Positions 2,139-43,421 of a stretch of DNA of 64,000 nucleotides are shown piece by piece; position 1 is the stretch's first letter, and each line of letters starts with the position of its first letter. This DNA is from Paenibacillus sp. FSL H8-0537 (GTDB taxonomy: Bacteria; Bacillota; Bacilli; Paenibacillales; Paenibacillaceae): NCBI RefSeq assembly GCF_038051995.1, contig NZ_CP150290.1:4392001-4456000 (forward strand). The letters run 5' to 3'. The notes beneath the pieces are model-generated. The model saw only the letters and a list, made by a program, of their open reading frames with translations, was not told where the DNA came from and ran no database searches. The position numbers and the translations under genes were made by a program.

Positions 2139-2543
2139 CTATCTAGACTGGAAATACAATCGGTAACGGCATACTAGATTCGTTATATTTACCAGCGATA
2201 ATACAGCAAGCCATATGATCAGAGATGACATGGTGGTCCATAATCCTAACCAAGGCAGCACACGTCCAGCAACAATAAATGAAGCTAGCTGGGGCAGGAA
2301 TAGAAAAATCAAGACCGGCAGCAGTCTCCCGACCGATGAAATAATCAATCTCCCAGCTGTTATTCTCTTCTTGCTCCTATTGATTCGGAAGATCGCATAG
2401 CCTCCCCAAAGGACCGTTCCAACTACCAGCAGCATCATAACCGTCTCCATATTTCTGTTGTTAAAGACAGGAGTTTCAGCTTTCTCTTCCGTCAGCAGTT
2501 TCCGAAGATCAGCTTCATCATCTATTATTAGTATTTTTTTCAT
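2139..2543 (-). CDS. Chimeric remnant: response-regulator start joined to a membrane C-terminus
   Basis: The first 17 residues (MKKILIIDDEADLRKLL) are a textbook beginning of a response-regulator receiver, with the acidic pair in place. From about residue 30 the protein instead becomes a stretch of three or four hydrophobic helices ending at residue 134. That part resembles the C-terminal membrane segment of Paenibacillus beta-lactamase-family serine hydrolases. The join is in frame. Receiver domains need about 120 residues, so this cannot phosphorelay. It is best read as a fossil of a deletion that fused two genes, although it may still be translated. A GAGGAAG ribosome site precedes the ATG. 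The assignment of the membrane half rests on visual similarity only. Confidence 0.55.
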   Translation of the reverse strand: MKKILIIDDEADLRKLLTEEKAETPVFNNRNMETVMMLLVVGTVLWGGYAIFRINRSKKRITAGRLIISSVGRLLPVLIFLFLPQLASFIVAGRVLPWLGLWTTMSSLIIWLAVLSLVNITNLVCRYRLYFQSR

Positions 2544-2717: not shown

Positions 2718-3659
2718 TTATCCAACAAGTCCTGTCCGCTCGATACTTTCGACAAAGTAGCGCTGCACGAACAGATAAAGAATAATTAGCGGCAAAATCG
2801 CAAGCAGTATTCCCGTGTCCTGTACCATGCTCAAGTAAAACGGGTCTGCTTTGGAGGATGCGCCGTCTTGGAGAAAGATGGATAAATTATAAGGCAAGGA
2901 AGCCAATTGTGTAGACATCACTTTGCTCGACGTTAGGTAGGTTGTCGTAAAGAAGCTGTCGTTCCACTGCCATACGAACGAGAACAGCAACACGGTTACG
3001 ATTGCCGGCATCGCATTTGGCAGCATAATGCGTAAAAACGTCTGCCCGACACCCGCACCGTCCATATAAGCGGCCTCCTCAACCTCCTTGGGCACACCTC
3101 TAAAAAATTGGCGAAAAATAAAAATATACAGCCCTGCTCGCAAGGAATTGGCTGTTATGGAGGTTAAAATAAACGGCCAATACGTGTTCAGCAAATTAAC
3201 AGATTTCCCCGTCAATAAAGGAATCAAGCCCATCAGGGTAAAGTCCTTCAGGTTTAAATACACGGGAATAAGTATAGTCGTAGGCGGAACCATGATCGTT
3301 AGAATGACGCCGCCAAAAAGCAGCTTGCTCCCTTTAAACTTAAGTCTTGCAAAAGCATAGCCAGCGAGCGCGCAGGAGGCAGCCGTCAGCAGGGTCGTTG
3401 TCGACGACAGCGCAAACGTGTTCAGCAGCGTCTGCCAATAATCCATAATGGCTATCGCCTGCTTAATATTATCCAGCGAATAATTTTGTGGAATCCATAT
3501 TACAATCGGTGAGTATAGATCGGTCTTGGACTTTATCGCTGTAGAAATCTTTTGCAGAATAGGATAAAGGATAACGAAGGATAATCCTGCGATTAAAGTT
3601 AAACGAACGAATGACCACAGCCACCGCTTCCAGCTTTCTAGCGATAATAATCGGTCCAT
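2718..3659 (-). CDS. Carbohydrate ABC transporter permease, MalG type (pair 2)
   Basis: Inner-membrane permease of the MalG/AraQ type with about six transmembrane helices. The first is at roughly residues 15-38 (LTLIAGLSFVILYPIL). The EAA loop that docks the ATPase reads EEAAYMDGAGVGQTFLRIMLP. It pairs with the upstream gene at 3682-4593 as the second half of a heterodimeric sugar channel. No ATPase is encoded nearby, which is normal for Firmicute CUT1 systems that share an MsmX-like ATPase. The frame is open back to 3713, overlapping the upstream gene. I place the start at the ATG at 3659 (MDRLLSLESWKRW), where family members begin. A TTG at 3665 is better spaced from the AAGGAG site. This is the last gene of the operon. 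Confidence 0.85.
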   Translation of the reverse strand: MDRLLSLESWKRWLWSFVRLTLIAGLSFVILYPILQKISTAIKSKTDLYSPIVIWIPQNYSLDNIKQAIAIMDYWQTLLNTFALSSTTTLLTAASCALAGYAFARLKFKGSKLLFGGVILTIMVPPTTILIPVYLNLKDFTLMGLIPLLTGKSVNLLNTYWPFILTSITANSLRAGLYIFIFRQFFRGVPKEVEEAAYMDGAGVGQTFLRIMLPNAMPAIVTVLLFSFVWQWNDSFFTTTYLTSSKVMSTQLASLPYNLSIFLQDGASSKADPFYLSMVQDTGILLAILPLIILYLFVQRYFVESIERTGLVG

Positions 3660-3681
3660 TATCAAGGCATTCACGCTCCTT

Positions 3682-4593
3682 TTAGTCTTGGTAGAACACC
3701 CTTTTAGATACAAAATACGAGCTGATCAGCAAAATAATCATGATTGCCAGAAAATAAAGCCATGCCATCGCTGAGCTGAGTCCAAAGTTAAAGGTGGCAA
3801 AGCCCGTCTCCCGAATCAATTCCGTCATATTATTCCTTGAGAACGAATCGATAATCGTATAGATCATATTGACGAGAATGAGTGGGCTGACCATCGGGAA
3901 CGTAATTTTCCAAAATGCTTCATAGCCCGTAGCTCCCTCCATCTTGGACGCCTCATACAGCTGAGGAGATATCGTCTGGATACCCGCTAGGAAGATCAAG
4001 AGCTGCACGCCCGACTGACTTACAATCTGATAAATACGGTCGACTGCCCCCGTAAGATACAAGACAATGTCTTCATTAACTCCCGCATCAAGCATTAATC
4101 CGGCCAGCTCATAAGCGCCAAAAGCATTGATGATGCTGGAGCCCGCATTTTGGTCATTGACAGCTTGGATCAAGCTTGTGCTCTCAAGCGTCATAATAAC
4201 CCCCGAAGCCAAAATGACAGGCAGAAAAAAGATCGACCTTGCAATAGCTCTGCCGAAAAATTTCTGATTCAGCAATACAGCTAAAAACAAACTGAATATA
4301 ACGATCAATGGTACGTTTACGACCATGTCCACAATCGCTTCTGTCAATATGCGATTAAAGCTCGTATTGATCGTCAAAGCCTCCACAAAGTTTGAAAATC
4401 CGATAAATTGGATGCTCAGGCCCTCCGAGTTAGCCGAAATAGAACTAAAGCTGTAGCGTAAGGAGGAGACCATCGGAATAAAAAAGAAAAAAACAAATCC
4501 AAGCAGCCAGGGCAGTACAAAAATAAAACCTAAAAAAGCCTTCTGCTGCGCATATGTCCGCTGCTTCAACCCGAGCTTCGTAATAAGCTTCAA
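3682..4593 (-). CDS. Carbohydrate ABC transporter permease, MalF/UgpA type (pair 2)
   Basis: This 303-residue integral membrane protein opens with a hydrophobic helix (GFIFVLPWLLGFVFFFFIPM). It has the MalF-type EAA loop EASKMEGATGYEAFWKITFPM near residues 213-233. It is the partner of the permease at 2718. The start is a TTG at 4593 overlapping the stop of the upstream lipoprotein gene by four bases, with GGTGG about nine bases ahead, so translation is probably coupled. An insert rich in polar residues (about 120-190) between helices is longer than in MalF-like proteins of this size and might form an outer loop. The substrate is not determinable. Operon context suggests a xylan-derived oligosaccharide. 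Confidence 0.85.
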   Translation of the reverse strand: MKLITKLGLKQRTYAQQKAFLGFIFVLPWLLGFVFFFFIPMVSSLRYSFSSISANSEGLSIQFIGFSNFVEALTINTSFNRILTEAIVDMVVNVPLIVIFSLFLAVLLNQKFFGRAIARSIFFLPVILASGVIMTLESTSLIQAVNDQNAGSSIINAFGAYELAGLMLDAGVNEDIVLYLTGAVDRIYQIVSQSGVQLLIFLAGIQTISPQLYEASKMEGATGYEAFWKITFPMVSPLILVNMIYTIIDSFSRNNMTELIRETGFATFNFGLSSAMAWLYFLAIMIILLISSYFVSKRVFYQD

Positions 4594-7142
4594 GAGCGTT
4601 CACCACCCGTAATATAGCTCTCGGCTTCAACCGTCCTGCCTTCAACCGTCACTTGAGTCTGGTTATAGTTCACAATCACATATATTCCATTCTCATAAAC
4701 CGTCTTAAATACGCCTTCATCCAGCTTGTCATGCGTGGTAATCCGCTCGTTTCGAACGCTCCTCAGAACGGCGTTCACTTCTTGATAGATCTCGGAGGCT
4801 TTATCGAGCCATAGCTTGTAATTGACAGCATAGAGATGATTGTATTCACTATCTTTTACCTTATAGTTCGGCTCGTAAATCCATTCGAAGTAAACACCCG
4901 CTCCATATTCCAAATTTTTCAGCACATATTGCTTTTCATTCGTATAGGTAGAAAGATTATACGGCGCCCCGGCGTATTCAATAAACCCACGAATGACCAT
5001 CTGATAGAAAGGAATTTCTTCATCCTCAAGCTTAAATCCGCTGCCGGACAACGGTGCATTCGTAATATGGGACAAATAAGGCAGCGCATAGGCATTTCCT
5101 CCGTTAGCCATTACCTTCAACTTTTCATCCCGAATTTTCTCCAGCGCTTCGCCCGATATGGCTTCAGACACCGTTCGATCCATTTGCTTGTTTTTACGGA
5201 AATCGCTATTCAATTGATCAGCCAAATCCTGCAGCGAGAGGCCTCCAGGCTGTAAATCACGAATGCCTTTGAGCATGGAATCCGTATAACCTACTACGAG
5301 CCGTGGGGATATGACATAGGACGGCGATTTGGTTATATCACGTCGATTCAATGCCAGATCAAGCGGATAAAGCATGGCAGGAACCTCTCTTAGCGTTCTT
5401 GAAGCTTCATCGGACTCATCGAACCCTCCTCCTGTAAGCGCAGTCAAAACGGAAACCTCCGGGAACAGAGAAATCCCTTTGCTCTGGGCAAACGCAATAA
5501 ACTCCTGCAAGCCCTTGCTCCCCCCGATTTCCTTATCGACCCTAACATGGTTCGGGACTTTATGATCGAGACCTCCATTAAACCAGCCAGAATACTTGAG
5601 CTTAATATCGCTTATCTCACGCTGCTGCAGCTGCTCGATAATGGTCTGCGCTTGCTCGAATGTCGTAAGCGGTTCAAGTGCCTGATAGGGAATGCCCACG
5701 AAGTGCTTCTGCTTGGATATGCTTCCAACCAGCTGCAAATAGAAGGGGGTATCCATTGTCGTATCATCTGCTTCGTGCTTAAGCAATCCATTCTTTTTCT
5801 CCAAATATTGCTGATAATATCGAGCCATTCCTTGGTAAGAAGCTTGCTTGCCACTTAGAAAAGCATAACGGATCGTATAATCGCTTTTCATCGGATTTTC
5901 TTGAAATCTTGGGAGTGAACGCTGCTGCCCATTCCCATCTAGGTATACTGTTCCCTTATTGATCACATAAAAATTCGGATAAACATAGTTGTAGCTGTTC
6001 AACCTGCCTCCAATGTCCGCATGGATGGTAGCAACAGATGCGCCCTCCTCAATGATTCCGAGAAAAGCTCCGCCCTCCCGAATAATCCCAAACACAGGGA
6101 GTCTCACCTTCTGTTCTCTAGCTGCATTCTCGGTTCTGTCTATCGTTTGATCCGCCCCGTAGACAAGCTGCTGATAGGCTGGATATTTGGTTTTTCCGTT
6201 GTTAAAGTGGATAAGAGCACCTGAGCCGTCCGGAACGAACATCGAACCGTCCTCATCCTTCCCTCCTGCACCAAAAAAGCTGAGGAGCGAAATCGTGTTA
6301 ACGGGATATTCATCGGGATAGCGGATGCTGGAAACGGGAATTTTGGCAACTAGGCTATCCGCATCCAGCGTATATTCAATCGATGCTTGAAAAATGCGCG
6401 CGGCGGGCTTCTCCTGCGTAAATTGAAGCTCGGCCATGTCCTCCTGCAGCTCCGCTTCTGTATAACCCGATTCCTCCAACGCAGCGAGCGCCCGCTCCAA
6501 TTGAAGCCCATTCAATGCGCTGTCATTTCTTGTATATACCGCTTTTTCCGTATCCTCTTTATAAGCGATGAGCAAGGCTCTTTTTCCCGCTTTCTTCAGC
6601 TTGCCCGACAATTCCTTGAAACGGGCCTTGCTTAACATTTTGGGTAAATCTTCTGCTGTTTTTGCGCTCGTTCCAAATTGATAAGATACGCTGATCCCAC
6701 TCGGAATCTCTGTGACATTAATCTGTTTATGGACAACACTGTCTGTGTATGAATTAATAGAGTTGATCTGGCCAAAGCTATTATAAAAATCAATTTTTAT
6801 TTGCGAGGACAATAAATCCTTGTTTACTCCCGTAGCAAGCGAATCCGAGCCTCGATCAAGCGGGTTGCTGTTCCATATTTCACCCGTTTGTTTAATAAGA
6901 ACCGCTATCGCCCCATTCTGATCATCTACGAATAGCCGCAGTTGGTCATTTTCAGCTACTCCCTTCATACCGGCGACACGAGAATCCGTGAAAGCAGCGC
7001 TCAAGGACTTCCCCTGCGCAAATACCGACAAAGCCTGATTATCGTCCTCGCTATGATTGCCAGATGGCGTATCGGAGCAGCCTGCAATGATAATCCCGAC
7101 TAGGAAGCATGCGACCAACAGGGCATTTTTGGCTATATTCAT
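4590..7142 (-). CDS. DUF5696-type lipoprotein, possible glycoside-hydrolase-like fold
   Basis: This 850-residue protein has a lipoprotein signal (IIAGC at residues 18-22), so it should be anchored on the outer face of the membrane. The N-terminal half (about 60-420) is beta-rich. The second half (about 460-790) has alternating segments such as IKLKYSGWFNGGLDH, GISLFPEVS and GAGVYFEWIYEP, which recall a TIM-barrel glycoside hydrolase. I recognise it as the DUF5696 family, which often sits beside sugar ABC transporters in Paenibacillus. No activity is established, and catalytic residues cannot be named with confidence. GGAGGAGG precedes the ATG. It lies between the Yip1-like gene and permease pair 2, with its stop overlapping the next start. 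Confidence 0.75.
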   Translation of the reverse strand: MNIAKNALLVACFLVGIIIAGCSDTPSGNHSEDDNQALSVFAQGKSLSAAFTDSRVAGMKGVAENDQLRLFVDDQNGAIAVLIKQTGEIWNSNPLDRGSDSLATGVNKDLLSSQIKIDFYNSFGQINSINSYTDSVVHKQINVTEIPSGISVSYQFGTSAKTAEDLPKMLSKARFKELSGKLKKAGKRALLIAYKEDTEKAVYTRNDSALNGLQLERALAALEESGYTEAELQEDMAELQFTQEKPAARIFQASIEYTLDADSLVAKIPVSSIRYPDEYPVNTISLLSFFGAGGKDEDGSMFVPDGSGALIHFNNGKTKYPAYQQLVYGADQTIDRTENAAREQKVRLPVFGIIREGGAFLGIIEEGASVATIHADIGGRLNSYNYVYPNFYVINKGTVYLDGNGQQRSLPRFQENPMKSDYTIRYAFLSGKQASYQGMARYYQQYLEKKNGLLKHEADDTTMDTPFYLQLVGSISKQKHFVGIPYQALEPLTTFEQAQTIIEQLQQREISDIKLKYSGWFNGGLDHKVPNHVRVDKEIGGSKGLQEFIAFAQSKGISLFPEVSVLTALTGGGFDESDEASRTLREVPAMLYPLDLALNRRDITKSPSYVISPRLVVGYTDSMLKGIRDLQPGGLSLQDLADQLNSDFRKNKQMDRTVSEAISGEALEKIRDEKLKVMANGGNAYALPYLSHITNAPLSGSGFKLEDEEIPFYQMVIRGFIEYAGAPYNLSTYTNEKQYVLKNLEYGAGVYFEWIYEPNYKVKDSEYNHLYAVNYKLWLDKASEIYQEVNAVLRSVRNERITTHDKLDEGVFKTVYENGIYVIVNYNQTQVTVEGRTVEAESYITGGERS

Positions 7143-7158
7143 CTCTATGCCTCCTCCC

Positions 7159-7794
7159 TTAGCTTCTCAAAACCAATTCTTGATAAATAACCGATATAAA
7201 AGCCAGCATCTGCTGGATTAAACTAAAGAACAATAAGCTTAAAAAGGCCATGAACCCCATAGCTGCAATCGTCAAAATGATGGTCCCGATCGTCTTGGAC
7301 GGCGTATATTGATGAACCGTCATATTGCCGACAAAGAGCAGAAACACGCACCATATCATGGCGATGCTGCTGGAAAAATGATAAAACGCCGTCTCCTGCA
7401 GCGAAATGAAATTGCTCAGCAAAATCCAAGGTAGCTGAATAATAACGAACGGTATTAATGCAAAGCATGTTGAAGTAAAGATGTCGACAAACTTCCCTTC
7501 CCCATCCATTAAGGTCGTCAGCGACCAATTGGCCACACACCAAAACAATACGGGAACAACGACATACAAAATCTCCATAAAGCTGTTCATTCCATTTGGA
7601 TTAACGAGATTGACCACAAACCCGCTGTACTGGCTCTGCATAATATTGGTCACGGCCAGCAAAAACAGAATCACAAAAGAAATGACGATGCTCGCCTTTT
7701 GATTGCGGTCATATTTCAGCTCCCAATAGCCATTAAAGGGATGCATAATGAGATAGAAAGGGTATTTATACAGCTCACTGTTCAATGGAGGCAA
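7159..7794 (-). CDS. Yip1-family integral membrane protein
   Basis: The body has about five hydrophobic helices after a short amphipathic start (LYKYPFYLIMHPFNGYWELKYDRN), which is the usual opening of Paenibacillus Yip1-domain proteins found beside NHL and DUF5696 genes. The frame is open back to 7842, which would overlap the upstream gene by 68 bases. A TTG at 7794 sits eight bases after GGGGG and still overlaps the upstream stop, so I chose it; TTG at 7785 is also possible. The function of bacterial Yip1 proteins is unknown. A role in assembling or regulating the neighbouring transporter is inference from the conserved gene order. Confidence 0.7.
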   Translation of the reverse strand: MPPLNSELYKYPFYLIMHPFNGYWELKYDRNQKASIVISFVILFLLAVTNIMQSQYSGFVVNLVNPNGMNSFMEILYVVVPVLFWCVANWSLTTLMDGEGKFVDIFTSTCFALIPFVIIQLPWILLSNFISLQETAFYHFSSSIAMIWCVFLLFVGNMTVHQYTPSKTIGTIILTIAAMGFMAFLSLLFFSLIQQMLAFISVIYQELVLRS

Positions 7795-9238
7795 CCTGAC
7801 GTCCCCCTTTCTTTTTCCGATACTTTTTAATAAGCAAGGCAACGATCACAAGTCCAAGCATGCCCGTCATAATCGCAGTAAAATGTTCCCGCAGCACTTG
7901 CTTGCGATAAAGCAGGAACGCCTTCGAATAGCCTTTCTGATCCATGCTTTGTTTAAAATATTTCATCGCCTCGCCATAATCCCCTTGCCGGATCAGTGCT
8001 TTGCCAATGCCCGCATAGGCGAATTCTAGATTTGCATTCATGTTAATCGTCTGATGAAACAACGTGTTGGCCTGCTCTTCATCGCCTTTATAATAAGCCC
8101 TGACCGCTTCATTCAAGGTGCGGCCGTATTCCGTCGATTGAAATACCGTGATTTCACCAAGCGCCTTATCCAGTATGAGGTAATCATCACCAACGCGCTC
8201 AAGCGCCACCGGTGTATGGAATTCACCCAATTGATTGCCTAGCCCGCCGAAAACATACATGAAATGTCCGTCACCATTGTAGGTGAAAATTCGGCCTCTA
8301 TTGGCATCCAAAATGGCGTATATTTCGCTGTCCGCGACATCGATATCGACCAAGCGGGTTGGACCATCAGCCTTCATAAAACGAATATCTCCTTCCGGAG
8401 GAAAATAACCTTCCTCCCTTAAAATATCGCCCCCCCGTGCATTCAATTTTCTGACGTTGTTTTGCATTTGACTATTTGTCGCGTAAAGGAAGCCTTCATC
8501 ATTAATATCCAAATTCGAAAATTCCGTCGGCGTGAACATCACCATCTGGCTCCGCTGCGCTTGGGTGGACAGCATTTTCCAAAAATACTCGACTGGGCTG
8601 AAAAACACACGGTTTGCGCCGATAAACGAAGTGAATTCGCCATTCGCATTAAATTCCATAAATCCGTCAAAAACACCCGCTGCCATCACGTAAATTCGCT
8701 GCGCCTTATCCACGACAACCCTTACCGGCTCAAATTTAAATGGGTCCTGCAGCAGCTCGGACTCGGGCGACTCGATAACCTTCACCAGCTTGTCGTCCTG
8801 ATCGAGATGAACCACTCTTTGATTTCCTGTATCAGCAACGAACAACTGCTTCTCATCCGTTACGAATAAACCTTGAGGGTTCTGGAACATTTCCTCTTTG
8901 CCCTCATGGACGTATGAAGTAATCATTCGCACCAGCTCAAATTGCTGATTCAAAATGACGACACGATTATTGCCTGTGTCGAGCAAATAAATCTGCTTAT
9001 CAGCCGTAACGTGCAAATCGCTCGGTTCCTTTAACGGCCCAATTCCCATGCTCTCGCCATTCCATAAGCTAGTTGCTTTGTAAGCTGCAGGAGCGGCTAC
9101 CGTGTCCCCCCAAAACGAATAATTGTAAGAGCCCGCATCCTCCGCCGCCTTGGCAATCGTTCCTCCCATGCCCATGCTTATCAGGCAACAAAGCGCAATG
9201 AATAGGTATACCTTTGTCTGTAATCTGCCTTTCAACAT
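7775..9238 (-). CDS. NHL-repeat beta-propeller membrane protein with TPR segment
   Basis: This 487-residue exported protein has a signal peptide (residues 1-31). NHL-type propeller repeats follow (about 55-370), seen as recurring blades such as LLDTGNNRVVILNQ, FVADTGNQRVVHLDQ, YAILDANRGRIFTYNGDG and YLILDKALGEITVF. A TPR-like stretch (about 375-445, AYYKGDEEQANTLFHQTI) comes next, then one C-terminal transmembrane helix (about 450-472) and a basic tail. The topology is an outside propeller held by a C-terminal anchor. Such propellers bind proteins or glycans. Next to two transporters and a Yip1 protein it could be a scaffold or a ligand sensor, which is inference. It overlaps the Yip1-like gene that follows. 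Confidence 0.8.
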   Translation of the reverse strand: MLKGRLQTKVYLFIALCCLISMGMGGTIAKAAEDAGSYNYSFWGDTVAAPAAYKATSLWNGESMGIGPLKEPSDLHVTADKQIYLLDTGNNRVVILNQQFELVRMITSYVHEGKEEMFQNPQGLFVTDEKQLFVADTGNQRVVHLDQDDKLVKVIESPESELLQDPFKFEPVRVVVDKAQRIYVMAAGVFDGFMEFNANGEFTSFIGANRVFFSPVEYFWKMLSTQAQRSQMVMFTPTEFSNLDINDEGFLYATNSQMQNNVRKLNARGGDILREEGYFPPEGDIRFMKADGPTRLVDIDVADSEIYAILDANRGRIFTYNGDGHFMYVFGGLGNQLGEFHTPVALERVGDDYLILDKALGEITVFQSTEYGRTLNEAVRAYYKGDEEQANTLFHQTINMNANLEFAYAGIGKALIRQGDYGEAMKYFKQSMDQKGYSKAFLLYRKQVLREHFTAIMTGMLGLVIVALLIKKYRKKKGGRQVASIEQ

Positions 9239-9254
9239 CCTGCACGACTCCCTT

Positions 9255-10136
9255 CTACTCTTTCATTCCGGAAGTTGCCATCGTCTGAATGACGCTGCTC
9301 TGGGAAATGATAAAGAGTGTGATCGGAACGACCATCAAGATTAGCGCAACTGCCGCACCGACTCCTGCTCTGGCAATTCCCCCTTGCGTAATTTGACCCA
9401 AAGCATAATGCAGCGTCTTTAAATTCTCACTGTAGATAAAGCTGCCCCCATCGGTCCCCCATAACATAGGAAACTGTAAAATCATGAGCGTTAACCATGC
9501 AGGCTTCACATTCGGCATGACAATGCTCCAAAAAATCCGGTATTCATTAGCACCATCAATTTTTGCCGCCTCCAGCAAGGCATCCGGTATTTGCTCCATG
9601 AACTGCTTCATGAGGAACAGACCTAACGGAAAGGCAAGTGACGGTACAATAATCGACGCATGCGTGTTAATCCATCCAAGCCATGACATCACCATATAGT
9701 TGGGAATTGCCGTCACATGCCCAGAAAACATCAAGGACAGCACTACGATGGAGAACAGCGTTTTTGATCCCAAAAATCGGTATTTTGCTAGTGGATATGC
9801 TGCGGCCGAGGCAAGCAAAATATGGCCGGCCGTACCGATAATTGTAATGATCACCGTATTTGCAATATATCGCGTGAGCGGGACCCACGAATTGCCCATT
9901 ATCGCCACCAGGTCAAAAAAGTTATCCAGCGTTGGGTTGTGCACAAATATGCGTGGCGGGAAAATAAACAGCTCATCAAGCGGCTTAAACGCATTGTTCA
10001 CTGCATAAATCAAGGGCATTGCCATAAAAGCGCCGAATAAGGCCAGGAGCGCGAATAGCAAAAAGCTGACTAGAAAGGAACGATTGAGCCTTTTGGGCGT
10101 CCGAAGGACCGCGAGCATTTTCATGGCCAACGTCAC
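9255..10136 (-). CDS. Carbohydrate ABC transporter permease, MalG type (pair 1)
   Basis: This 293-residue inner-membrane permease has six predicted helices. Its EAA loop EAAKIDGANEYRIFWSIVMPN near residue 200 matches the CUT1 MalG/AraQ consensus. It starts at a GTG (10136) that overlaps the stop of the upstream permease, so the pair is probably translationally coupled; an ATG five codons later is an alternative. With 10133-11092 it forms the first of two permease pairs in this operon. The two pairs are clearly different in sequence, so they may handle different sugars. Confidence 0.88.
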   Translation of the reverse strand: MTLAMKMLAVLRTPKRLNRSFLVSFLLFALLALFGAFMAMPLIYAVNNAFKPLDELFIFPPRIFVHNPTLDNFFDLVAIMGNSWVPLTRYIANTVIITIIGTAGHILLASAAAYPLAKYRFLGSKTLFSIVVLSLMFSGHVTAIPNYMVMSWLGWINTHASIIVPSLAFPLGLFLMKQFMEQIPDALLEAAKIDGANEYRIFWSIVMPNVKPAWLTLMILQFPMLWGTDGGSFIYSENLKTLHYALGQITQGGIARAGVGAAVALILMVVPITLFIISQSSVIQTMATSGMKE

Positions 10137-11092
10137 TCACCGACCTTTCGCAGCATTTTCTGTGTCAGCATATTCGTTCCAATCATAATGACAAAAAGAA
10201 CTGTCGCAATGGCTGACGCGTAGCCCATTTCAAAGCGAATCGAGCCAAAGTCCATCAGGTGCGTAACCACCGTATGCGCAGCATAGTTGACACTTGGAAA
10301 GCCAGCCAGCGCAATGGAGATGTCCGCAACCGCGAATGCTCCAGTAATCTGCAGGACGGCCCCGAATAACAGCTGCGGCCTCATGGAAGGCAGCGTAATG
10401 AACCACAATTCCTGCCAACGATTGTTAATGCCATCAACGGCGCCCGCTTCAATCAACGTCTGATCAATCGTTTGCAGACCCGCGATAAAGGCGAGAAAGC
10501 TCGTGCCCAGGCTAAGCCATAGCTGGACGAGAATCACGATCGGCAAAATATATTTCTCATTGGTCAGCCATAAAATCGGTTCCAGCATTAATCCATATTT
10601 GATCAGAAACCCATTTAAATAGCCGTAGCTATCTCCGGAAAATACGATCAGCCATATAAAGAACACATTTCCAGAAATCGATGGCGCATAGAAAATCAAG
10701 GTCATGACCGCACGAATCTTCGGTGACAGCTCATTGATGATCCATGCAAATAGAAAACAAGCGATATAGCTGACCGGGCCGGTAATGACCGCGAACATAA
10801 AGGTATTTTTTAAGGCAATCATGAATACATCGTCGTTAAGAAACAGCCTTGAATAGTTTTGCCAGCCAACAAAACGCGGAAATTCGAGCATATTAAAATA
10901 AAAGAAGCTTAGACATAAAGAGAATACGACTGGAATGACCGTAAATAAGAAGAAAATAAGCATATACGGACTCATCAAAATATAGTGATGCTTGTTTCTT
11001 TTCAACTCCTTTATCGTATGTGCCCATTTGGACGTCTTCGTTGGCTGGACGGGTTTAGGAACGGTTTTACCTGTTGCTGTTTCTGCTTGCAT
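10133..11092 (-). CDS. Carbohydrate ABC transporter permease, MalF/UgpA type (pair 1)
   Basis: This 319-residue permease has a cytoplasmic N-terminus of about 35 residues, then six helices beginning YILMSPYMLIFFLFTVIPVV. The EAA loop is EAGAVDGINNRWQELWFITLPS near residues 218-239. The ATG at 11092 has GGGGTG seven bases ahead. It follows the large solute-binding protein gene by 17 bases, and binding protein, MalF and MalG in that order is the canonical CUT1 arrangement. No ATPase gene follows. Confidence 0.88.
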   Translation of the reverse strand: MQAETATGKTVPKPVQPTKTSKWAHTIKELKRNKHHYILMSPYMLIFFLFTVIPVVFSLCLSFFYFNMLEFPRFVGWQNYSRLFLNDDVFMIALKNTFMFAVITGPVSYIACFLFAWIINELSPKIRAVMTLIFYAPSISGNVFFIWLIVFSGDSYGYLNGFLIKYGLMLEPILWLTNEKYILPIVILVQLWLSLGTSFLAFIAGLQTIDQTLIEAGAVDGINNRWQELWFITLPSMRPQLLFGAVLQITGAFAVADISIALAGFPSVNYAAHTVVTHLMDFGSIRFEMGYASAIATVLFVIMIGTNMLTQKMLRKVGE

Positions 11093-11108
11093 CGGCTTTC
11101 ACCCCAAT

Positions 11109-14006
11109 CTAGTACGGTAAGTTGAATTCCTTTCGTTTGATCGCTATTTCATCGTTAATGTACAAAATATAATCGGATAATGCCTCACGAGGATTCTCAT
11201 TTCCATTGACGACTTTTCGGAAGGCATTATCCAGATGCCTGCCCGTGAAATAGCCGCCTGGAACCTGCGGGATTCCTCGCACCCACTGCCACTGGCTCTC
11301 TAAATTTTGATAGTCCTTAATCGGCCAAGGCAATTGCCCAAGCGCCTCCATATTAGCTGTCGGATAACGTGCCGCTTCACCCATAAGCCCTTCCATCTCG
11401 CGTCCGTATGCCACTTGGGTTTCCTTGTCCGTCCACCATTTCATAAATTCCCATGCCGAGTCCTTGTCATTCGCATTCTCAAGCATCATCACTGCGGTTG
11501 TATGGCTGGCAACTTCATGATTGATCGAGCCGTTCTGCTGCTCCATGCCGGGCACGATTGTAAAGTCCCATAGGCCTTTAATTTCCGGTGCCATGACCGT
11601 CAGTGCATTGTAGGTCGTATAGTCCGCAATGCCGACAGGCATCTCACCCGTCCGAAAGCGATTAGGAAAGTCCGCTTGCAGCGGAAACTTGTAGTTCGTA
11701 TAGAACTGCGACCATCTCTTGAAGGCTTCCATCGATATCTCGGAATCCAAAGCGCTTCTTTTGTCCTCATCCCGATAGAACGCTCCGCCATTTTGGTACA
11801 GCAGCATCGCGAATGTCGCATTCGGAACGAGGTTCGCGTTATTGGTTGCCGCCTCAATAGGCAAATAAAACTCCATATTATGCTTTTGAAGAACGGAAAT
11901 CATGTTGTATACTTCCTGCCAGGTTTTAGGCGGCGTCAATTCCAGCTCCTCCAAAATATCCTTGCGATAAAACAGCATCGGGAACGTCTGCTGCTCCGGA
12001 AGGGCATACACCCCGTTGCTGTACACATACGGTTCCAGTGCGCTGTCGCGGAAACGGGACGCCACCTCCTTGAAATCAGCAAAGCTCGATAAGTCCGCAG
12101 AGGCGTTCCGCATCGCATAGTTGACGGGTACATCTTCGCCAATCTGCATAGCAACGTCAGGCCCTTCCTCAGCTAAAGTAGCCGGTAGAAGGATGTTGCC
12201 CGGGACGAGCCTAAGCTTCACCGAAATATTCGATGCCGATGTAAACGAATCGTCAATCAAGCTTTTCAGCACTTGCGCCTGATCCCGCCCTGTCGTAATC
12301 CAGACGGTTATGGAACGCTGATTTTCTCCTGTATTTCCAATGCTGTCATAGTCTTCGGTATAAGAGGCTATATAGCCGCCAAGCTCGTGCTTTATTCGAC
12401 CCAATGCCGTTGCCTCCGCCTGAGGGAGCTCGCGATCTGGCGAGGAGACAACCAAATAATCAAGTGTAAGCGGTTGTTCACGTACGGTCAGAATCCATGT
12501 TCCAAGACCGCCGACATTGATTTTAAATGCATTCAAGCGCCTTGCGACGGTTTCCGGTTTGTCCACCATTTCTTCCAATTGACGAACCATCGTATGCAGA
12601 ACAGCTACTTTGTCGCTGCGCTCCCCCGTTGCTTGCTCCAAGTAATCGGCCACACGTTGAATCGTTGCCGCTTGCTCCTTGAACACCTTCGTCATCTCCG
12701 GTATACGCTTCTCCAATTGATAATCGCGGTAGGGGTCCGGCGTATTCGAGGTAATCATCAATATTTTCCTAAACATTTCATTAAGCTGCAAAACGCTGGA
12801 CTCAACCGTTCGCAGCAGCGGCGCAATTTCGCCGAGAGAAACCTCCATCCGAATTCGATGCGTGCCTTTCGTCAGATGGAATAAATACGGCTCCGCTCCT
12901 CCGAGTACATTCATCTGCCAGTTCATATCGAATTTAAACGGGATTCGCTTCATTTCCGTAAACGGGTACTGGCCGTCAATCATCAGGCTGCGTGTGCTGT
13001 AAACGCCCCGGAGCTGATCCTGCTTGCGCTTAAGGGCAATTTGATACAGGCCGTCCTCCTTCACCTCTACTTCCCACTCTATCCACTGCCCAGGCAGCTT
13101 CCAATTCAGTCCGCCAATCGTATTGATTCTGAGCTTGGAAACATCGTACGGAACAACCGACGAACTTGATCTGTCGATAAGCGGGCTCAAGGTTGGAGAT
13201 GACTTCAGCACAGCCTCTTCCGCCTGAATCGTCACGTATTGATCTTTAACAGGTGCTAAACCTGCGACTTCATATTCTTTTTTGATTTCCGCATATGATT
13301 TTGCGGTTTTCTCCTGATACAGCTCGATATAATCGATAGCCATTGGCTCCCGTGATGACGTCAGCGACAAGGTTTGCTGCCCTTGGTCAAAATAGAATAA
13401 ATACGGCTCGTCATAATAACCGCCGCTATCCGTTAAAGTTTTGAGCTGCCATGATGGCTTCTCGACCTGTCTCGGGCGCAGGTCGTTTCCTCTATCGTCC
13501 CTTCTTATAGCATCTTCCAGATTACCCCACAGTCGGTTGAACAACAGCATTTCCGCACCCTTGAATGGCACCTTCTCATTAATAGCAAGCTGCCTTTCGA
13601 TCGCTGAGCTTTTCCCCTCTATGGGGTAATAATGAATTCTAATGTTGTATAGTCCCGGTTCTGCCATCTCCAGATTCCAGCTAATGGCTCCAGCCTCCGG
13701 CGTAATCACCGCTTTTCCATCCAAGCCTTCAAACCGATCTGCCATTTCAAAGCCGTCTCCAACCGTTTTCGAAAAGCTTTCCCCTTCGATTCGGATAACT
13801 TCAGCCGGACGATCGGCAGTCGAATAGCTGTTCAAATAGTCGTCATAGCCGCCCTTGGCATAGGAATGCTCTCCCATCTCAAAAGCACTCATGGCTTTAA
13901 CCTTCCCCCTATCAGATTGATTCGGAGGGTTATAGCTCCAAATGGACAAAAAAAATAAAACTAGAGCTAGTATGGCGATTGTGTATTTCTTCGCTTTGCT
14001 GTTCAA
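11109..14006 (-). CDS. Large solute-binding protein fused to carbohydrate-binding-like domains
   Basis: The product is about 965 residues from the TTG at 14006, which lies seven bases after AGGAGGGG; the open frame extends to 14072 but has no comparable ribosome site. A hydrophobic N-terminal segment (KKYTIAILALVLFFLSIWSY) exports or anchors it. Two beta-sandwich regions follow (about 70-230 and 255-400), with phrases typical of CBM6/CBM35-like modules (IRIEGESFSK, MAIDYIELYQE, VTIQAEEAV, GTHRIRMEV). A helical linker (about 410-500) leads to a family 1 extracellular sugar-binding domain (about 580-965). This is about twice the length of normal binding proteins. It could hold polymer or cell-wall glycan near the transporter. 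It is the second gene of the operon, after a strong hairpin. Confidence 0.8.
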   Translation of the reverse strand: MNSKAKKYTIAILALVLFFLSIWSYNPPNQSDRGKVKAMSAFEMGEHSYAKGGYDDYLNSYSTADRPAEVIRIEGESFSKTVGDGFEMADRFEGLDGKAVITPEAGAISWNLEMAEPGLYNIRIHYYPIEGKSSAIERQLAINEKVPFKGAEMLLFNRLWGNLEDAIRRDDRGNDLRPRQVEKPSWQLKTLTDSGGYYDEPYLFYFDQGQQTLSLTSSREPMAIDYIELYQEKTAKSYAEIKKEYEVAGLAPVKDQYVTIQAEEAVLKSSPTLSPLIDRSSSSVVPYDVSKLRINTIGGLNWKLPGQWIEWEVEVKEDGLYQIALKRKQDQLRGVYSTRSLMIDGQYPFTEMKRIPFKFDMNWQMNVLGGAEPYLFHLTKGTHRIRMEVSLGEIAPLLRTVESSVLQLNEMFRKILMITSNTPDPYRDYQLEKRIPEMTKVFKEQAATIQRVADYLEQATGERSDKVAVLHTMVRQLEEMVDKPETVARRLNAFKINVGGLGTWILTVREQPLTLDYLVVSSPDRELPQAEATALGRIKHELGGYIASYTEDYDSIGNTGENQRSITVWITTGRDQAQVLKSLIDDSFTSASNISVKLRLVPGNILLPATLAEEGPDVAMQIGEDVPVNYAMRNASADLSSFADFKEVASRFRDSALEPYVYSNGVYALPEQQTFPMLFYRKDILEELELTPPKTWQEVYNMISVLQKHNMEFYLPIEAATNNANLVPNATFAMLLYQNGGAFYRDEDKRSALDSEISMEAFKRWSQFYTNYKFPLQADFPNRFRTGEMPVGIADYTTYNALTVMAPEIKGLWDFTIVPGMEQQNGSINHEVASHTTAVMMLENANDKDSAWEFMKWWTDKETQVAYGREMEGLMGEAARYPTANMEALGQLPWPIKDYQNLESQWQWVRGIPQVPGGYFTGRHLDNAFRKVVNGNENPREALSDYILYINDEIAIKRKEFNLPY

Positions 14007-14043
14007 TTCTTCTCCCCTCCTGCTGCTAGAGATAAAATATTCC

Positions 14044-14084
14044 GAACAGCCCCTATTAATAGACTGGCTCAATAGGGACTGTTC
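14044..14084 (-). terminator. Intercistronic hairpin behind the first binding-protein gene
   Basis: A 14-bp stem, fully paired on the minus-strand RNA with one G-T wobble (14044-14057 with 14071-14084), lies between the 470-residue binding-protein gene and the 987-codon gene. It is followed by a broken T stretch. Hairpins in this position usually protect or partly terminate the transcript, so that the first binding protein is made in excess over permeases. Confidence 0.7.
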
Positions 14085-14102
14085 GACATTCGTAAGGAAT
14101 CG

Positions 14103-15515
14103 CTATTTTTTATACACTTCGTCAATTGCAGCTTGAACATTCGCTTTAAATTTGCTTATAACGGTAGATACCGAGTTTCCAGCAATAAGATCGCCTATAA
14201 TATCGTAATAAGGCAATTTCGGGAATGTATTGTGATCGAGAACAAGCATGCCTTTTCCGGAAATGATGGCGTTCTCAATATCATCCTCATTCGTAAAGTT
14301 GCTCTCCAGTGTAGCTTGGTCTGGATAATCATAAAGCGAATCGACATCGTTTATTTTTTCCCAAATGTACATAAGCTGCTCTGGGTTCTCGACTTTTTTT
14401 GGAATCGCCAGGGACTGGAAGAGAGCTTCGCCAGCATGGTAGGCGGTAGCACTCGGACCTTTAGGGAAGGGAACGAAGCCGATGTCATAATCCTTCATAT
14501 CAGTCTTAAGTCCTCCGATTTCCCAAATGGCGCCTGCATACATCAGCGTATTGCCTTGACGGAAAAACTGGCCAGGCTCTGTCCAATCTCCGCCTTCCGT
14601 AGCTCTGGCAACCTTCTCGGTTGCCACACGGGAAATGAAATTAAAGGCTTCAACCGTTTTGGGATCTTCTAAATTTTGCTTATTCCCTAGGGTAAGGCTT
14701 GCTTCATTGGAGTACAGCGACTGATCCATCAGCGAGCCTTGTGAAAGTCCCCATCTATCCAGCTTCCCATCGTTATTCGTATCCTTGTTGGCCTCTTTGG
14801 CAACTTGAATGAACGTGTCCCAATTCCAATTATCTTCATCTACATAATCCTGAAGCGGCTTAAGTCCTAGCTGATTCAGAAGAGTACGATTATAGAAAAC
14901 CCCACTCATAAAATCAGACTGATTATCCGTAAAACCATAGCCTCTGCCCTCATACTGCATAAACTCATTTGTAACCTTCTGGTTGAATACCTTCGTATTT
15001 TTCGTATACTCATCAATCGGCCAAATTAAATCTTGTTGGACCAATGCCGGAATCATATAGGCTTTACCCAGTCTGACGATATCGCCTAGTGGCTCGCCTG
15101 CTACCAAAGATGCGACAACTTTCTGCTGATACTCACCGTAGTCAACAGCGACGTATTCCACTTTAAAATTATGCTTCTTCATTAGATCATCCAGATTTTT
15201 CTTGCGCTGAATGTTGTCTGGATTGTCCTCGGGTATCGTCATATCCCACCACGATACGATTTTGATCACCCGTCCGCCCATGTCAAAATCCATCTCTGGC
15301 GTCGATTGTTCATCTCCAGTTGCCTCACCGGCATTATTAGCTTCAGCAGGCTCAGTCGTTTCCGAGCCTTCGTTAACGCTTGCCTCTACCGGTTCCTTAT
15401 TGCTGTTACCATTACTGCTTCCACTGGCATTAGTGCCTGCATTACCGCTGCATGCTGCTAGTGTAAATATCAACATTAAACTTAATAAAAAGACTGACAG
15501 TTTTCTCACTTGCAT
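14103..15515 (-). CDS. Sugar ABC transporter substrate-binding lipoprotein
   Basis: This 470-residue lipoprotein has lipobox LAAC at residues 19-22, followed by a Ser/Asn/Glu-rich linker (about 23-75) and then a family 1 solute-binding fold. TNNDGKLDRWGLSQ near residue 250 is an EF-hand-like loop seen in many LplA-type binding proteins. The first gene of an operon encoding a binding protein is typically the primary ligand receptor. GGGGGG lies six bases before the ATG. The transcript should begin about 26 bases upstream, at the promoter module at 15548-15613, and a hairpin follows the gene. The ligand is probably a xylan oligosaccharide, inferred from the promoter it shares with the secreted xylanase. 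Confidence 0.88.
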   Translation of the reverse strand: MQVRKLSVFLLSLMLIFTLAACSGNAGTNASGSSNGNSNKEPVEASVNEGSETTEPAEANNAGEATGDEQSTPEMDFDMGGRVIKIVSWWDMTIPEDNPDNIQRKKNLDDLMKKHNFKVEYVAVDYGEYQQKVVASLVAGEPLGDIVRLGKAYMIPALVQQDLIWPIDEYTKNTKVFNQKVTNEFMQYEGRGYGFTDNQSDFMSGVFYNRTLLNQLGLKPLQDYVDEDNWNWDTFIQVAKEANKDTNNDGKLDRWGLSQGSLMDQSLYSNEASLTLGNKQNLEDPKTVEAFNFISRVATEKVARATEGGDWTEPGQFFRQGNTLMYAGAIWEIGGLKTDMKDYDIGFVPFPKGPSATAYHAGEALFQSLAIPKKVENPEQLMYIWEKINDVDSLYDYPDQATLESNFTNEDDIENAIISGKGMLVLDHNTFPKLPYYDIIGDLIAGNSVSTVISKFKANVQAAIDEVYKK

Positions 15516-15547
15516 ATGGATCCCCCCTGAAAATGGATTACATAAAA

Positions 15548-15613
15548 ATTGTAGCGCTTACATTTCTGAGTAACAACCTGCCTGTATTTAGATCAATCAC
15601 CCTATAAATTATA
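15548..15613 (-). promoter_or_regulatory. Composite promoter of the nine-gene ABC operon, copy 1 of a shared module
   Basis: On the minus strand the -35 is TTGTTA (15571-15576), the spacer is 17 bases, and the -10 is TACAAT (15548-15553), about 30 bases before the start codon. A cre-like site (15550-15562, core GTAAGCGCTAC on the minus strand) overlaps the -10 and spacer, so CcpA binding would block polymerase. Upstream lie box A GGGTGATTG (15594-15602), box B AGGTTGTT overlapping the -35, and an A/T-rich TATAATTTATA. The same order and spacing recur twice before the secreted xylanase gene. Boxes A and B are 22 bp apart, about two helical turns, as expected for an AraC-type activator. Confidence 0.7.
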
Positions 15614-15798
15614 GATTCCAGTAAAATCGCTTTCTTTCCATGTTACACCAATTTACAAATGGTAAACAAATGGTTGAGGGATAAAGAAATGCACGTTGTG
15701 GAGAAGCCGTGCGTTGAACATAATGGAAACATAATTACTTCATTCGTACGGAAATTCATCCGAAGCCTATTATCGAAAATGAAAGTGAGGTTCTAACC

Positions 15799-16551
15799 GT
15801 GTATAAGGTATTGCTTGTTGATCCAATGATTCATTCGAGGGAAAAGACGCTGAACTTGCTTGACTGGAGACATTTAGGTTTTATCATACAAGCGTATGCG
15901 GGCAATTCCTCGGACGCCCTGGCTTTAATGGACAGGGAGCCCTTTTCCCTTGTTCTAATTAATATTAAAAACGCTCAAGCAGATGGCATGCTGCTTTGCG
16001 AGCATATCCGCCAGCAAAGCCGCGTTTCGATCATCCTCTTGGAAGGGGGCGATGATTTCCAGTTGGCTAGGAAAGCTTTGTCCTTTCAAGTAAGCGATTA
16101 CATTGCGCAGCCTGTTCAAGCAAGCGATTTAACGGCAAGCATACTTGCTGTAAAAAAAGAACTGGAATCCATCGCTGATGATCAACAGCCATTACATGCA
16201 TCGCCTGTCCCCTTTAAGCGGAGCAAGCAGGGCAAGTCGATTATCGATATCGTAAAAAAATACGTGGAGGAAGAATTGCACCTTAACATTACGCTGAAAA
16301 AAATATCCTCCCTTTTGCACTTCAACTGCGCTTATCTGGGTCAAAAGTTCAAGGATCACGAAAACATGTCGTTTAATGAATACCTCCTTCAGCAACGGAT
16401 GGAAAAAGCAAAGCTGCTGCTCGAAAAAACGGATATGCGCATCTATGAAATTGCGAATGAGGTTGGTTACACTGAAATCGATTGGTTTTATAAAAAATTC
16501 AAAGCGTATACAGGAGCCAGTGCGAACGAATATAGAAAGCAAATCTCTTAA
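15799..16551 (+). CDS. YesN-like AraC regulator with degenerate receiver domain
   Basis: This 250-residue protein has a receiver-like domain (1-120) and an AraC-type double helix-turn-helix (about 150-250, ending DWFYKKFKAYTGASANEYRKQI). The receiver fold is visible, but key residues are changed. The phosphorylated Asp is Asn55 (LVLINIK instead of the usual LVLTDIR), the conserved Thr/Ser region reads ILLEGG, the signalling Lys is Gln104 (YIAQPV instead of YLLKPV), and the acidic pair is VDPM rather than VDDE. It therefore should not be controlled by phosphorylation. It starts at GTG (15799), eight bases after GTGAGG. It is divergent from the nine-gene operon and has no histidine kinase partner, so it is the likely direct regulator of that operon. 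Confidence 0.85.
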   Translation: MYKVLLVDPMIHSREKTLNLLDWRHLGFIIQAYAGNSSDALALMDREPFSLVLINIKNAQADGMLLCEHIRQQSRVSIILLEGGDDFQLARKALSFQVSDYIAQPVQASDLTASILAVKKELESIADDQQPLHASPVPFKRSKQGKSIIDIVKKYVEEELHLNITLKKISSLLHFNCAYLGQKFKDHENMSFNEYLLQQRMEKAKLLLEKTDMRIYEIANEVGYTEIDWFYKKFKAYTGASANEYRKQIS

Positions 16552-16672: not shown

Positions 16673-17707
16673 CTATTGTTCTGTTGCTCTACTTGCAGAC
16701 AAATGGACAACCTCGTAATAGGCACCTTTCGGCTGCTGCTCCGTATCAAACAATAGCGGCCAATTTTTGCGGCCACTTACCGGGAAATAATCCAGCCAAG
16801 TATAGTCGTCTGCCGCTCCCCAAAACGTAACACCTGTCAGCACATCCCTATATTCGCGAAACAGCTCAAAAAACTGGCGGTAACGTTGTTCCTGCTGACG
16901 CAGCATTTCAACTGTCGGTATCACTATATCCGTACGTCGGTCTTCAAAGGCGAAGACCGACACATCCATCTCAGTAATTTGCAGCTTCAAGCCAAGCGAT
17001 GCATAACGCTCGATTGCCGCGCGGATGTCATCCAGAGATGGTTCTGTTAAATTCCAATGTCCCTGCAACCCAATACCGTGTACCGGAGCTCCCTGTTCAA
17101 GAAGCGTCTTGACGAGCCGATAAATTTTCTCGCGCTTCGCCGGATTGCACTCATTGTAATCGTTGTAGAACAACAGCGCCGCTGGATCGGCTTCATGGGC
17201 AAATTGGAAGGCTTTTACCATGTAATCCTCGCCAATGCCCTCCAGCCACCTCGAGGGCCTCAACCATTCATCCCCTTCGTCGCTGACCGCTTCGTTGACG
17301 ACATCCCAGCAATAGCTAGTATCTTGGTAACGCTGCATAACCGCCATGATATGCGCCTTCATCCGGGCAAGCAGCGTTTCCCGAGATGCTGTTCCGCCGT
17401 TTCCATCGTCGAATACCCAATCTGGTGTCTGATTATGCCACACGAGCGTATGCCCGCGCAGCTTCATGCCATGCTCTCTGGCAAACTGGGCAATCTGATC
17501 AGCCGCCTCGAATGTATACGTATCCTCGGCAGGGTGAAGGCTTTCAAATTTCATTTCGTTTTCCGCCGTCAAGCTGTTGTAATGCTTGATCAGCAATTCA
17601 CGTTGACTAACGATGGTGTGACCATTAACCGCAGCACCAATCAGAAAATCATTTTTGAAGCTTCCCGCCAGACTATCCGCTGAATTCATATGCTTCTTCT
17701 CTGTCAT
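16673..17707 (-). CDS. Intracellular GH10 endo-1,4-beta-xylanase
   Basis: This 344-residue single-domain glycoside hydrolase family 10 protein has no signal peptide, so it should act in the cytoplasm on imported xylo-oligosaccharides or aldouronates. The TIM barrel runs over almost the entire length. The acid/base Glu139 lies in WDVVNEAV and the nucleophile Glu246 in LQITEMDVS. Also visible are RGHTLVWHNQTPDW near 84-97 and the C-terminal FWGAADDYTWLDYFP substrate-site motif. It begins 35 bases after the secreted GH10 gene, with GAGAGGCGG before the ATG, so the two are almost certainly one transcript. Families of this type release xylose and xylobiose inside the cell. Confidence 0.93.
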   Translation of the reverse strand: MTEKKHMNSADSLAGSFKNDFLIGAAVNGHTIVSQRELLIKHYNSLTAENEMKFESLHPAEDTYTFEAADQIAQFAREHGMKLRGHTLVWHNQTPDWVFDDGNGGTASRETLLARMKAHIMAVMQRYQDTSYCWDVVNEAVSDEGDEWLRPSRWLEGIGEDYMVKAFQFAHEADPAALLFYNDYNECNPAKREKIYRLVKTLLEQGAPVHGIGLQGHWNLTEPSLDDIRAAIERYASLGLKLQITEMDVSVFAFEDRRTDIVIPTVEMLRQQEQRYRQFFELFREYRDVLTGVTFWGAADDYTWLDYFPVSGRKNWPLLFDTEQQPKGAYYEVVHLSASRATEQ

Positions 17708-20745: not shown

Positions 20746-20763
20746 CTACACTTAAAAGTGTAG
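20746..20763. promoter_or_regulatory. 18-bp perfect palindrome overlapping P2
   Basis: An 8-bp perfect inverted repeat CTACACTT/AAGTGTAG with a 2-base centre overlaps the -10 and start region of P2. Copies 1 and 3 of the module lack it, so it may be an extra operator specific to P2. Confidence 0.5.
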
Positions 20764-20822
20764 CGCTTACATTTTTGGACAACAACCTGTCTATCTTGTG
20801 TTCAATTACCCGTCATATTATA
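20757..20822 (-). promoter_or_regulatory. Distal promoter P2 of the secreted xylanase, module copy 2
   Basis: On the minus strand, -35 TTGTTG (20780-20785), a 17-base spacer and -10 TACACT (20757-20762). The cre-like site at 20759-20771 is identical to that of the nine-gene operon. Box A GGGTAATTG (20803-20811), box B AGGTTGTT and TATAATAT (around 20815-20822) lie at exactly the same distances as in copy 1. Confidence 0.68.
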
Positions 20823-20835
20823 GGTTTATTCTTGT

Positions 20836-26834: not shown

Positions 26835-26915
26835 ACAAAATCCTCCGATGCTGCTTTTATAAGTTGTGAGCAAGTATTGTGTCTTCCAGCAGACAAAAGT
26901 CGAAGAAACCTCTCC

Positions 26916-28589: not shown

Positions 28590-28735
28590 TATTGGTATTC
28601 TCAACAGGTGTGCCCCATTTCACATTAGAAAATATCGACCCAGTCTATTACTCTAATTATCCAAATAATGAGAAGAAACACAATACACATCTCTTTATAT
28701 TGTTACCCATCCTTTACTTTAAAAGCAAATAAAAA

Positions 28736-40059: not shown

Positions 40060-40095
40060 TAATCACCCCTCCATTCCCCCTGGATTGCCGCTTGC

Positions 40096-43258: not shown

Positions 43259-43421
43259 CGCGGGCTGATCCCTCTCTTTCAGGCCTATCACTGACAGACT
43301 TGTATGATTGACGATTATTTACTAGAGTTAGAAAATCTTGTTATTATCTTACGATTGGCTTGCCATTAATGCAAGGGGGGAATGGACGCTTTTCGCGATT
43401 TCCCCTGCCTCAAGACGTAAT

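Follow-up and report, generated by a model that had tools for sequence, protein, structure and literature searches.

The closest described relatives of the locus considered here are CUT1 sugar importers of the ATP-binding cassette (ABC) type. The locus is an operon of nine genes at 2718-15515 on the minus strand of a 64,000-nucleotide stretch of DNA from Paenibacillus sp. FSL H8-0537 (contig NZ_CP150290.1, positions 4,392,001 to 4,456,000), hereafter the window. It belongs to a real and conserved cassette in which a dual ABC importer is nearly always accompanied by an NHL-Yip1-DUF5696 module. CUT1 importers that use a shared MsmX/MsmK ATPase, such as Athe_0597-0598 in the available part of PMC12838199, resemble the cassette in their family 1 binding proteins, their permease pair, and an ATPase encoded elsewhere; unlike them, the cassette has two permease pairs and the near-obligate proteins N (NHL), Y (Yip1), and D (DUF5696). 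The Xua system (XuaABC) of Ruminiclostridium cellulolyticum is likewise an operon for the import of xylan oligosaccharides, controlled by a two-component regulator of the AraC type, but it has a single binding protein and a single permease pair, and NHL, Yip1, and DUF5696 parts are not mentioned in the accessible sections of its description (PMC11127375). The aldouronate/xylan transporters of Paenibacillus sp. JDR-2 share with the window copy the genus and the uptake of xylan oligosaccharides beside GH10 enzymes, yet those described in the sections of PMC4765114 at hand are three-gene systems, unlike the nine-gene cassette. GH129 and GH129-like glycosidases (NagBb, 5wzn; ZGAL_3152, 5opq) have profile similarity to D, whereas D is membrane-anchored and tied to an importer, and any counterparts of their catalytic residues in it are putative.

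A more distant parallel is the SusCD core of the polysaccharide utilization loci of Bacteroidota, a multi-copy uptake core that is paired with different hydrolases. The cassette is alike in being a multi-copy core with varied hydrolases, but it is Gram-positive and of the ABC type, and none of the nine proteins carries a SusC (TonB-dependent) or SusD domain at E ≤ 0.001. No account of the cassette was found in searches of an open-licence literature library, in which no paper contains the term 'DUF5696', although a description elsewhere is possible. An initial annotation of this DNA had proposed a candidate undescribed system; within that literature the cassette is apparently undescribed, as are, apparently, the roles of N, Y, and D. 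The reading that we favour, and regard as probable, is that the nine genes encode one cell-surface glycan-uptake machine, in which the proteins would form a physical complex with a division of labour.

The nine-gene operon and its conservation

Nine open reading frames (ORFs) are present in the order S2-S1-P4-P3-N-Y-D-P2-P1. The predicted content of two binding proteins, two permease pairs, and NHL/TPR, Yip1, and DUF5696 proteins was borne out by all ORFs and by their Pfam domains: BPD_transp_1 in four proteins, SBP_bac_1/8 in two, DUF5696, Yip1, and NHL with a sub-threshold TPR match. S2 (14103-15515, 470 aa) is a lipoprotein sugar-binding protein of family 1 (SBP_bac_1), and S1 (11109-14072, 987 aa as an ORF) is a sugar-binding protein anchored in the membrane, in which two related domains at the N-terminus precede SBP_bac_1 (residues 601-886). 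P4 (10133-11092) and its partner P3 (9255-10136) are CUT1 permeases with the BPD_transp_1 domain, as are P2 (3682-4593) and its partner P1 (2718-3713). N (7775-9238, 487 aa) combines a signal-type N-terminus, an NHL propeller matched by Pfam, TPR, and a C-terminal membrane helix. Y (7159-7842, 227 aa as an ORF) is a Yip1-family protein by Pfam, with five membrane helices predicted from hydropathy. D (4590-7142, 850 aa) matches PF18952 (E 4e-222), has a lipobox read by eye, and is GH129-like.

The true start of S1 is probably the TTG at 14006 rather than 14072, because a purine-rich, ribosome-binding-like stretch lies just 5' of it and many homologues have about 965 aa, the length that the product would then have; the S2-S1 gap would therefore be about 100 nt. 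Y probably starts near 7794, since its homologues are 208-211 aa long. The genes had been said to overlap or nearly touch, and this holds for every junction (≤16 nt) but S2-S1. A 17-bp stem-loop (14043-14085, minus strand, fold z -3.1) lies between the S2 stop and the S1 start. At gaps of this type the transcripts of binding proteins are often set apart, by analogy with malE. The tandem terminators that had been placed at the operon end correspond to two terminator-like hairpins with U-runs 3' of P1, at about 2642-2695 and 2590-2615 (2590-2701 together, minus strand, both z -3.65); a search of Rfam at gathering thresholds gave no match. On the basis of gene spacing and hairpins, the nine genes would be carried on one transcript. 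Beyond the hairpins, a short ORF (2139-2543, minus strand) has a response-regulator-receiver-like start (MKKILIIDDEADLRKLL) followed by unrelated membrane-like sequence; with no Pfam match at E ≤ 0.001, it may be what is left of a gene or a purely mechanical ORF.

To follow the cassette, loci were taken from the genus, family, and phylum levels, and genes were classed with profiles derived from the proteins of the window and related sequences. DUF5696 exceeds the cut-off in 45 of 51 genus genomes, 77 of 118 in the family sample, and 37 of 398 in the phylum sample; the closest named relatives of D are from Paenibacillus (94% and 89% identity). The 197 loci compared comprise 80 named ones (the best 80 of 578 confirmed, hence nearest relatives only), 60 picked from the listed genus, family, and phylum matches, and 57 mostly from copy-rich genomes. 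They are not independent, as at least eight pairs represent the same locus or genome twice (L068/L102, L063/L170, L071/L157, L072/L129, L203/L095, L204/L126, L196/L108, and L208/L098), and L194 and L195 stand in for L048 and L053.

The order S1-P4-P3-N-D-P2-P1 is found in 186 of the 197 loci. Y is present in all 197, N in 196, four or more permeases in 190, S1 likewise in 190, and S2 in 176. A standard CUT1 operon consists of just a binding protein and a single pair of permeases, and the departure from it, with two permease pairs together with N, Y, and D, is thus a kept feature, as the initial annotation had supposed. Among the 11 loci without the full order, L083, L084, L089, and L090 carry S1-P4-P3 after P1, L076-L078 have N-D-P2-P1 without S1-P4-P3 within 9.8 kb, and L085 is without all or part of that block there, the missing block in these last four possibly lying beyond the fetched stretch; L137 and L139 are cut contigs, as are some further loci of the set, and L082 ends at a contig edge. 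The S2 copy nearest to D is upstream in 141 of 180 loci, downstream in 21, and absent in 18, and in some distant loci S2 stands after P1, as in some does S1-P4-P3 where it is not absent from the fetched stretch. The pattern suggests three blocks, S1-P4-P3, N-Y-D, and P2-P1-S2, and S1 would pair with P4/P3 because the three move (L083, L084, L089, L090) or are missing (L076-L078) as a block.

The question of whether the extra genes are kept with the transporters was answered in the positive by separate searches for N, Y, and D in eight genomes, which returned 48, 48, and 48 matches with equal counts per genome (1 to 19). All 48 D genes have their own distinct N 5' on the same strand, with centres at most 3.1 kb apart, and their own distinct Y likewise, within 2.1 kb. 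In seven of the eight genomes, each of the 29 D genes has one distinct S1 upstream, the S1 search itself giving 29 matches. At the phylum level N occurs in 16 of 199 genomes, all 16 of them among the D-positive ones. Because it is kept across genomes, the layout is more than chance, and a chance neighbourhood is ruled out by the kept order and the complete D-N and D-Y linkage.

Both binding proteins match PF01547 and PF13416 and are thus of the CUT1 family 1 solute-binding type. The one solved structure related to S2 at E ≤ 0.001 is that of an arabino-oligosaccharide-binding protein (6rjy, E 7e-16). S1 has one N-terminal hydrophobic segment and two mutually related domains at residues ~88-258 and 278-425 (hhalign 98%), beyond which the remainder is the binding-protein domain. 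The first of the two resembles CBM35 (hhalign 66%, E 5.5e-5) and the second hardly does (9%), against 7% for a control comparison of CBM35 with CBM6; Pfam gives no CBM match in either. All four permeases match PF00528, and the EAA-type loop of CUT1 permease pairs is kept in most homologues (P1 158/178, P2 153/178, P3 156/174, P4 154/174).

No ATPase is found among the nine proteins. The expectation that energy must come from elsewhere is correct yet describes an ordinary situation, since a UgpC-type ATPase is encoded at a distance. In a search with a UgpC-type query that scored 150 of 179 candidates, a single protein of the own genome (C1:302414-303517) matched at E ≤ 1e-60, and it also exceeds the cut-off of the UgpC subfamily, so that an ATPase of the UgpC/MsmX type is available, and we infer that it serves the nine-gene importer. 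In 14 of 188 loci with full-length S1, a UgpC-size ATPase gene lies directly 5' of S1; five of these were family-scanned and are UgpC (L180, L188, L193, L202, L210), and the other nine were assigned by similarity and size. A system without any energy source is ruled out by the distant gene and by these genes in cis.

The same data bear on the strongest alternative, namely that two ordinary and independent ABC importers are merely co-transcribed, with N, Y, and D as separate accessories (for surface binding or quality control) that form no complex. The EAA-type loops kept in both permease pairs would suit such importers, as would the position of the in-operon ATPase beside S1 where one is present and the occurrence of N-D-P2-P1 without S1-P4-P3 in L076-L078 (L137, similar in appearance, being a cut contig). 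Two unconnected importers would hardly explain a gene order that scarcely varies throughout the phylum sample, the one-to-one numbers of N, Y, and D in up to 19 copies per genome, the fusion of N with Y described below, or the one-to-one occurrence of S1 with D in seven genomes, and we regard this account as rather unlikely.

The NHL-Yip1 subunit and the DUF5696 protein

N has matches in the PDB to NHL and TPR proteins. Hydropathy, together with a bias in charge behind the last helix, puts the propeller on the outside and the N-Y fusion point on the inside: K/R are in excess on the C-terminal side of that helix in 139 of 167 N proteins, with 10 opposite and 18 equal. A single fused gene takes the place of N and Y in 54 of the 197 loci, and on a FastTree tree of D the split and fused states change eight times over 179 scored loci, compared with at least 33 times in 50 shuffles, which speaks for the two working together as a single membrane subunit.

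A profile built on 20 diverse D sequences matches 5opq (E 5.7e-13), 8rzg (about 5e-13), and 5wzn (NagBb, E 6.9e-10), and three collinear stretches are aligned between D and 8rzg; by profile homology, D is a distant relative of the GH129-type glycosidases. The best conserved acids over 180 D proteins are E745 (99%), D305 and D331 (both 98%), D647 (93%), and D707 (89%). Of these, E745, D647, and D707 are the best conserved in the C-terminal two thirds; which acids would lie in the barrel is read from the alignment. The candidate catalytic residues of 5opq are Asp202, Asp486, Glu517, and Glu531 in the accessible part of PMC5698469, and the printed alignments of D with 5opq end before the position of Asp486. 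A lipobox-like N-terminus is recognised by a loose pattern in 78 of the 180 proteins. D may either be an enzyme itself or have descended from one and serve in binding; the candidate of a plain GH129 enzyme is weakened by the lack of an invariant acid and by a Pfam match to DUF5696 only. The polymer processing that the initial annotation had proposed is a candidate step on this evidence.

If D belonged to a new GH family and, as an active exo-glycosidase, trimmed oligosaccharides before import, it might itself be the main reason for the cassette. The distant matches to 5opq, 8rzg, and NagBb and the good conservation of E745, D647, and D707 are in keeping with this idea. We nevertheless consider it improbable, because the same D family accompanies GH10, GH26, GH32, and GH38 enzymes, for which a single exo-activity would be odd, and because no acid is invariant.

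Promoters, xylanases, and other hydrolase neighbours

The xylan link of the window copy is well supported by its promoter. A 73-nt repeat with 77% identity is common to the promoters of the nine-gene operon (15545-15617) and of a GH10 operon (20754-20826, minus strand), and within it the module CAGGTTGTT-N9-TGTAAGCGCTA overlaps a cre-like site (15549-15562). An exact-pattern search finds the module only twice in the 7.0-Mb genome, at 15552-15580 (minus strand) and 20761-20789; one further site has three mismatches, and a reversed control pattern has one match within three mismatches. The xylan assignment rests on this exclusive occurrence before the nine-gene operon and the GH10 operon, whose two xylanase genes (16673-17707 and 17743-20442, minus strand, Pfam GH10) share the module. 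Among 84 regions upstream of S2 (the window counted), the module is found with up to three mismatches in 20 and in none after shuffling, where the best match never fell below seven mismatches; a cre site with at most one mismatch is found in 47 of the 84, against 2 of 252 simple shuffles. Aligning nine upstream regions yielded a weak consensus, and the exact-module pattern was used instead. A promoter-like site lies 5' of S2 at 15576-15548, but region-wide such sites are not in excess (24, against 25.8 expected from shuffles).

Between the two operons, a short response regulator with an AraC-type helix-turn-helix (15799-16551, plus strand, Pfam) is divergent to S2, and a homologue is so placed in 58 of 74 testable named loci. 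The notion that P2/P1, N-Y, and D act as a trigger-type glycan sensor controlling this regulator, with import left to S1-P4-P3, draws on that frequency but is still less probable than an exo-glycosidase role for D, given that the regulator occurs in only one of six other testable loci (a small test) yet N-Y-D at all levels sampled, and that P2 and P1 look like full permeases.

The three genes that follow P1 include one for GH10 in 39 of the 80 nearest named loci and in 3 of the 60 loci chosen at genus, family, and phylum levels. The genome taken as Paenibacillus sp. JDR-2 has one cassette copy (E ≤ 1e-20), with GH10 directly after P1. The genes that follow P1 in other copies are of many kinds: GH26 with a GDSL esterase, GH30, GH32, GH38, GH31, GH43, DUF5060, a ricin-type lectin protein, and further GH76, GH2, GH35/42, GH20, GH5-like, and GH8. 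A Pfam tally of 79 genes from the 64 of 180 loci that received no neighbour label (25 of 100 families listed) adds GH42, GH29, GH16, and others, along with some neighbours of no evident carbohydrate role (a luciferase-like monooxygenase in five, MFS in two). Xylan as a universal substrate is ruled out by these varied glycosidases. The link to xylan that had been drawn from the shared promoter module therefore stands for the window copy and part of its close relatives, and not for the cassette in general.

Neighbour labels, of 12 kinds and not all glycosidases, change 17 times on the D tree (116 labelled of 180 loci) against at least 57 times in 100 shuffles, which shows that they are stable by clade and are not independent events; relatedness contributes, and the counts speak for clade-wise stability only. 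Because other copies adjoin GH26, GH30, GH32, GH38, GH43, GH76, and more, the cassette looks like a portable glycan-uptake core, present in up to 19 copies per genome. One genome of the same family (7.6 Mb) has 19 copies each of N, Y, and D, and seven of its loci have a UgpC-size ATPase 5' of S1. At L193, L202, L224, and L075, extra genes for S2-type binding proteins lie after or inside the cassette, as if adding specificities. Behind the cassette and GH10, L166 (15612-18313) and loci like it carry an ABC exporter gene beside a DUF1854 gene, and several named Paenibacillus loci have genes of similar length near the same place.

Further genes of note are found farther along the window. A 2085-aa surface-layer-type protein (28778-35035, minus strand) has GH43 in two stretches, CBM4_9, CBM6, and SLH domains, and there are cre-like sites at 34997 and 35254. 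Two sets of genes on the minus strand (23438-28604 and 38383-43291), both close to xylanolytic genes, resemble from their translations an AraC-type response regulator, a sensor kinase, and a binding protein.

A proposed mechanism and its significance

The model that accommodates these features is one cell-surface machine in which two CUT1 ABC importers are held together with the dedicated N-Y-D module. Anchored S1, with its carbohydrate-binding-like domains, would feed P4/P3, and S2 would feed P2/P1. N-Y may act as a split membrane subunit, its propeller and TPR facing outward and its Yip1 part lying in the membrane, as a scaffold or a gate. D, outward-facing and GH129-like, may hold or perhaps trim oligosaccharides near P2/P1, and ATP would be hydrolysed in trans by an ATPase of the UgpC/MsmX type. 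The window copy would take up the oligosaccharides that the adjacent GH10 xylanases release from xylan, and it would be co-regulated with these enzymes through the common promoter, probably by CcpA-type repression and by the divergent AraC-type regulator, these being the candidate regulators.

Several observations weigh against this model. The pairing of S2 with P2/P1 is based on gene order, the window D matches DUF5696 only in Pfam even at E up to 10, and no acidic residue is strictly invariant over the 180 D sequences. Of the 80 nearest named loci, 41 (cut contigs among them) show no GH10 gene in the first three positions behind P1, and in the window the GH10 genes lie on the other side, upstream of S2 and past the divergent regulator. 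For JDR-2, the available sections of PMC4765114 assign xylan uptake to other transporters; as far as its main text is concerned, neither NHL nor Yip1 appears, and the JDR-2 cassette is not recognisable there by term search.

A bolder form of the single-machine reading, which we hold tentatively and consider possible rather than probable, is that the cassette is a Gram-positive counterpart of SusCD, in which N-Y-D would couple two ABC importers physically and the whole would be retargeted by swapped binding proteins and hydrolases. Bacillota are major degraders of plant polysaccharides, and to our knowledge no widely shared SusCD-like uptake core has been established for them. With its near-invariant order, its up to 19 copies, and its many hydrolase neighbours, the cassette is a strong candidate for such a core. 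In the accessible part of PMC4765114, an unidentified mechanism is said to couple hydrolysis at the surface with the transport of oligoxylosides; for this open question the cassette gives a testable part list. If the proposed machine is real, the cassette would be a candidate mechanism by which Paenibacillus links surface xylan hydrolysis to oligosaccharide import, and it suggests what DUF5696 and a bacterial NHL-Yip1 protein are likely to do.

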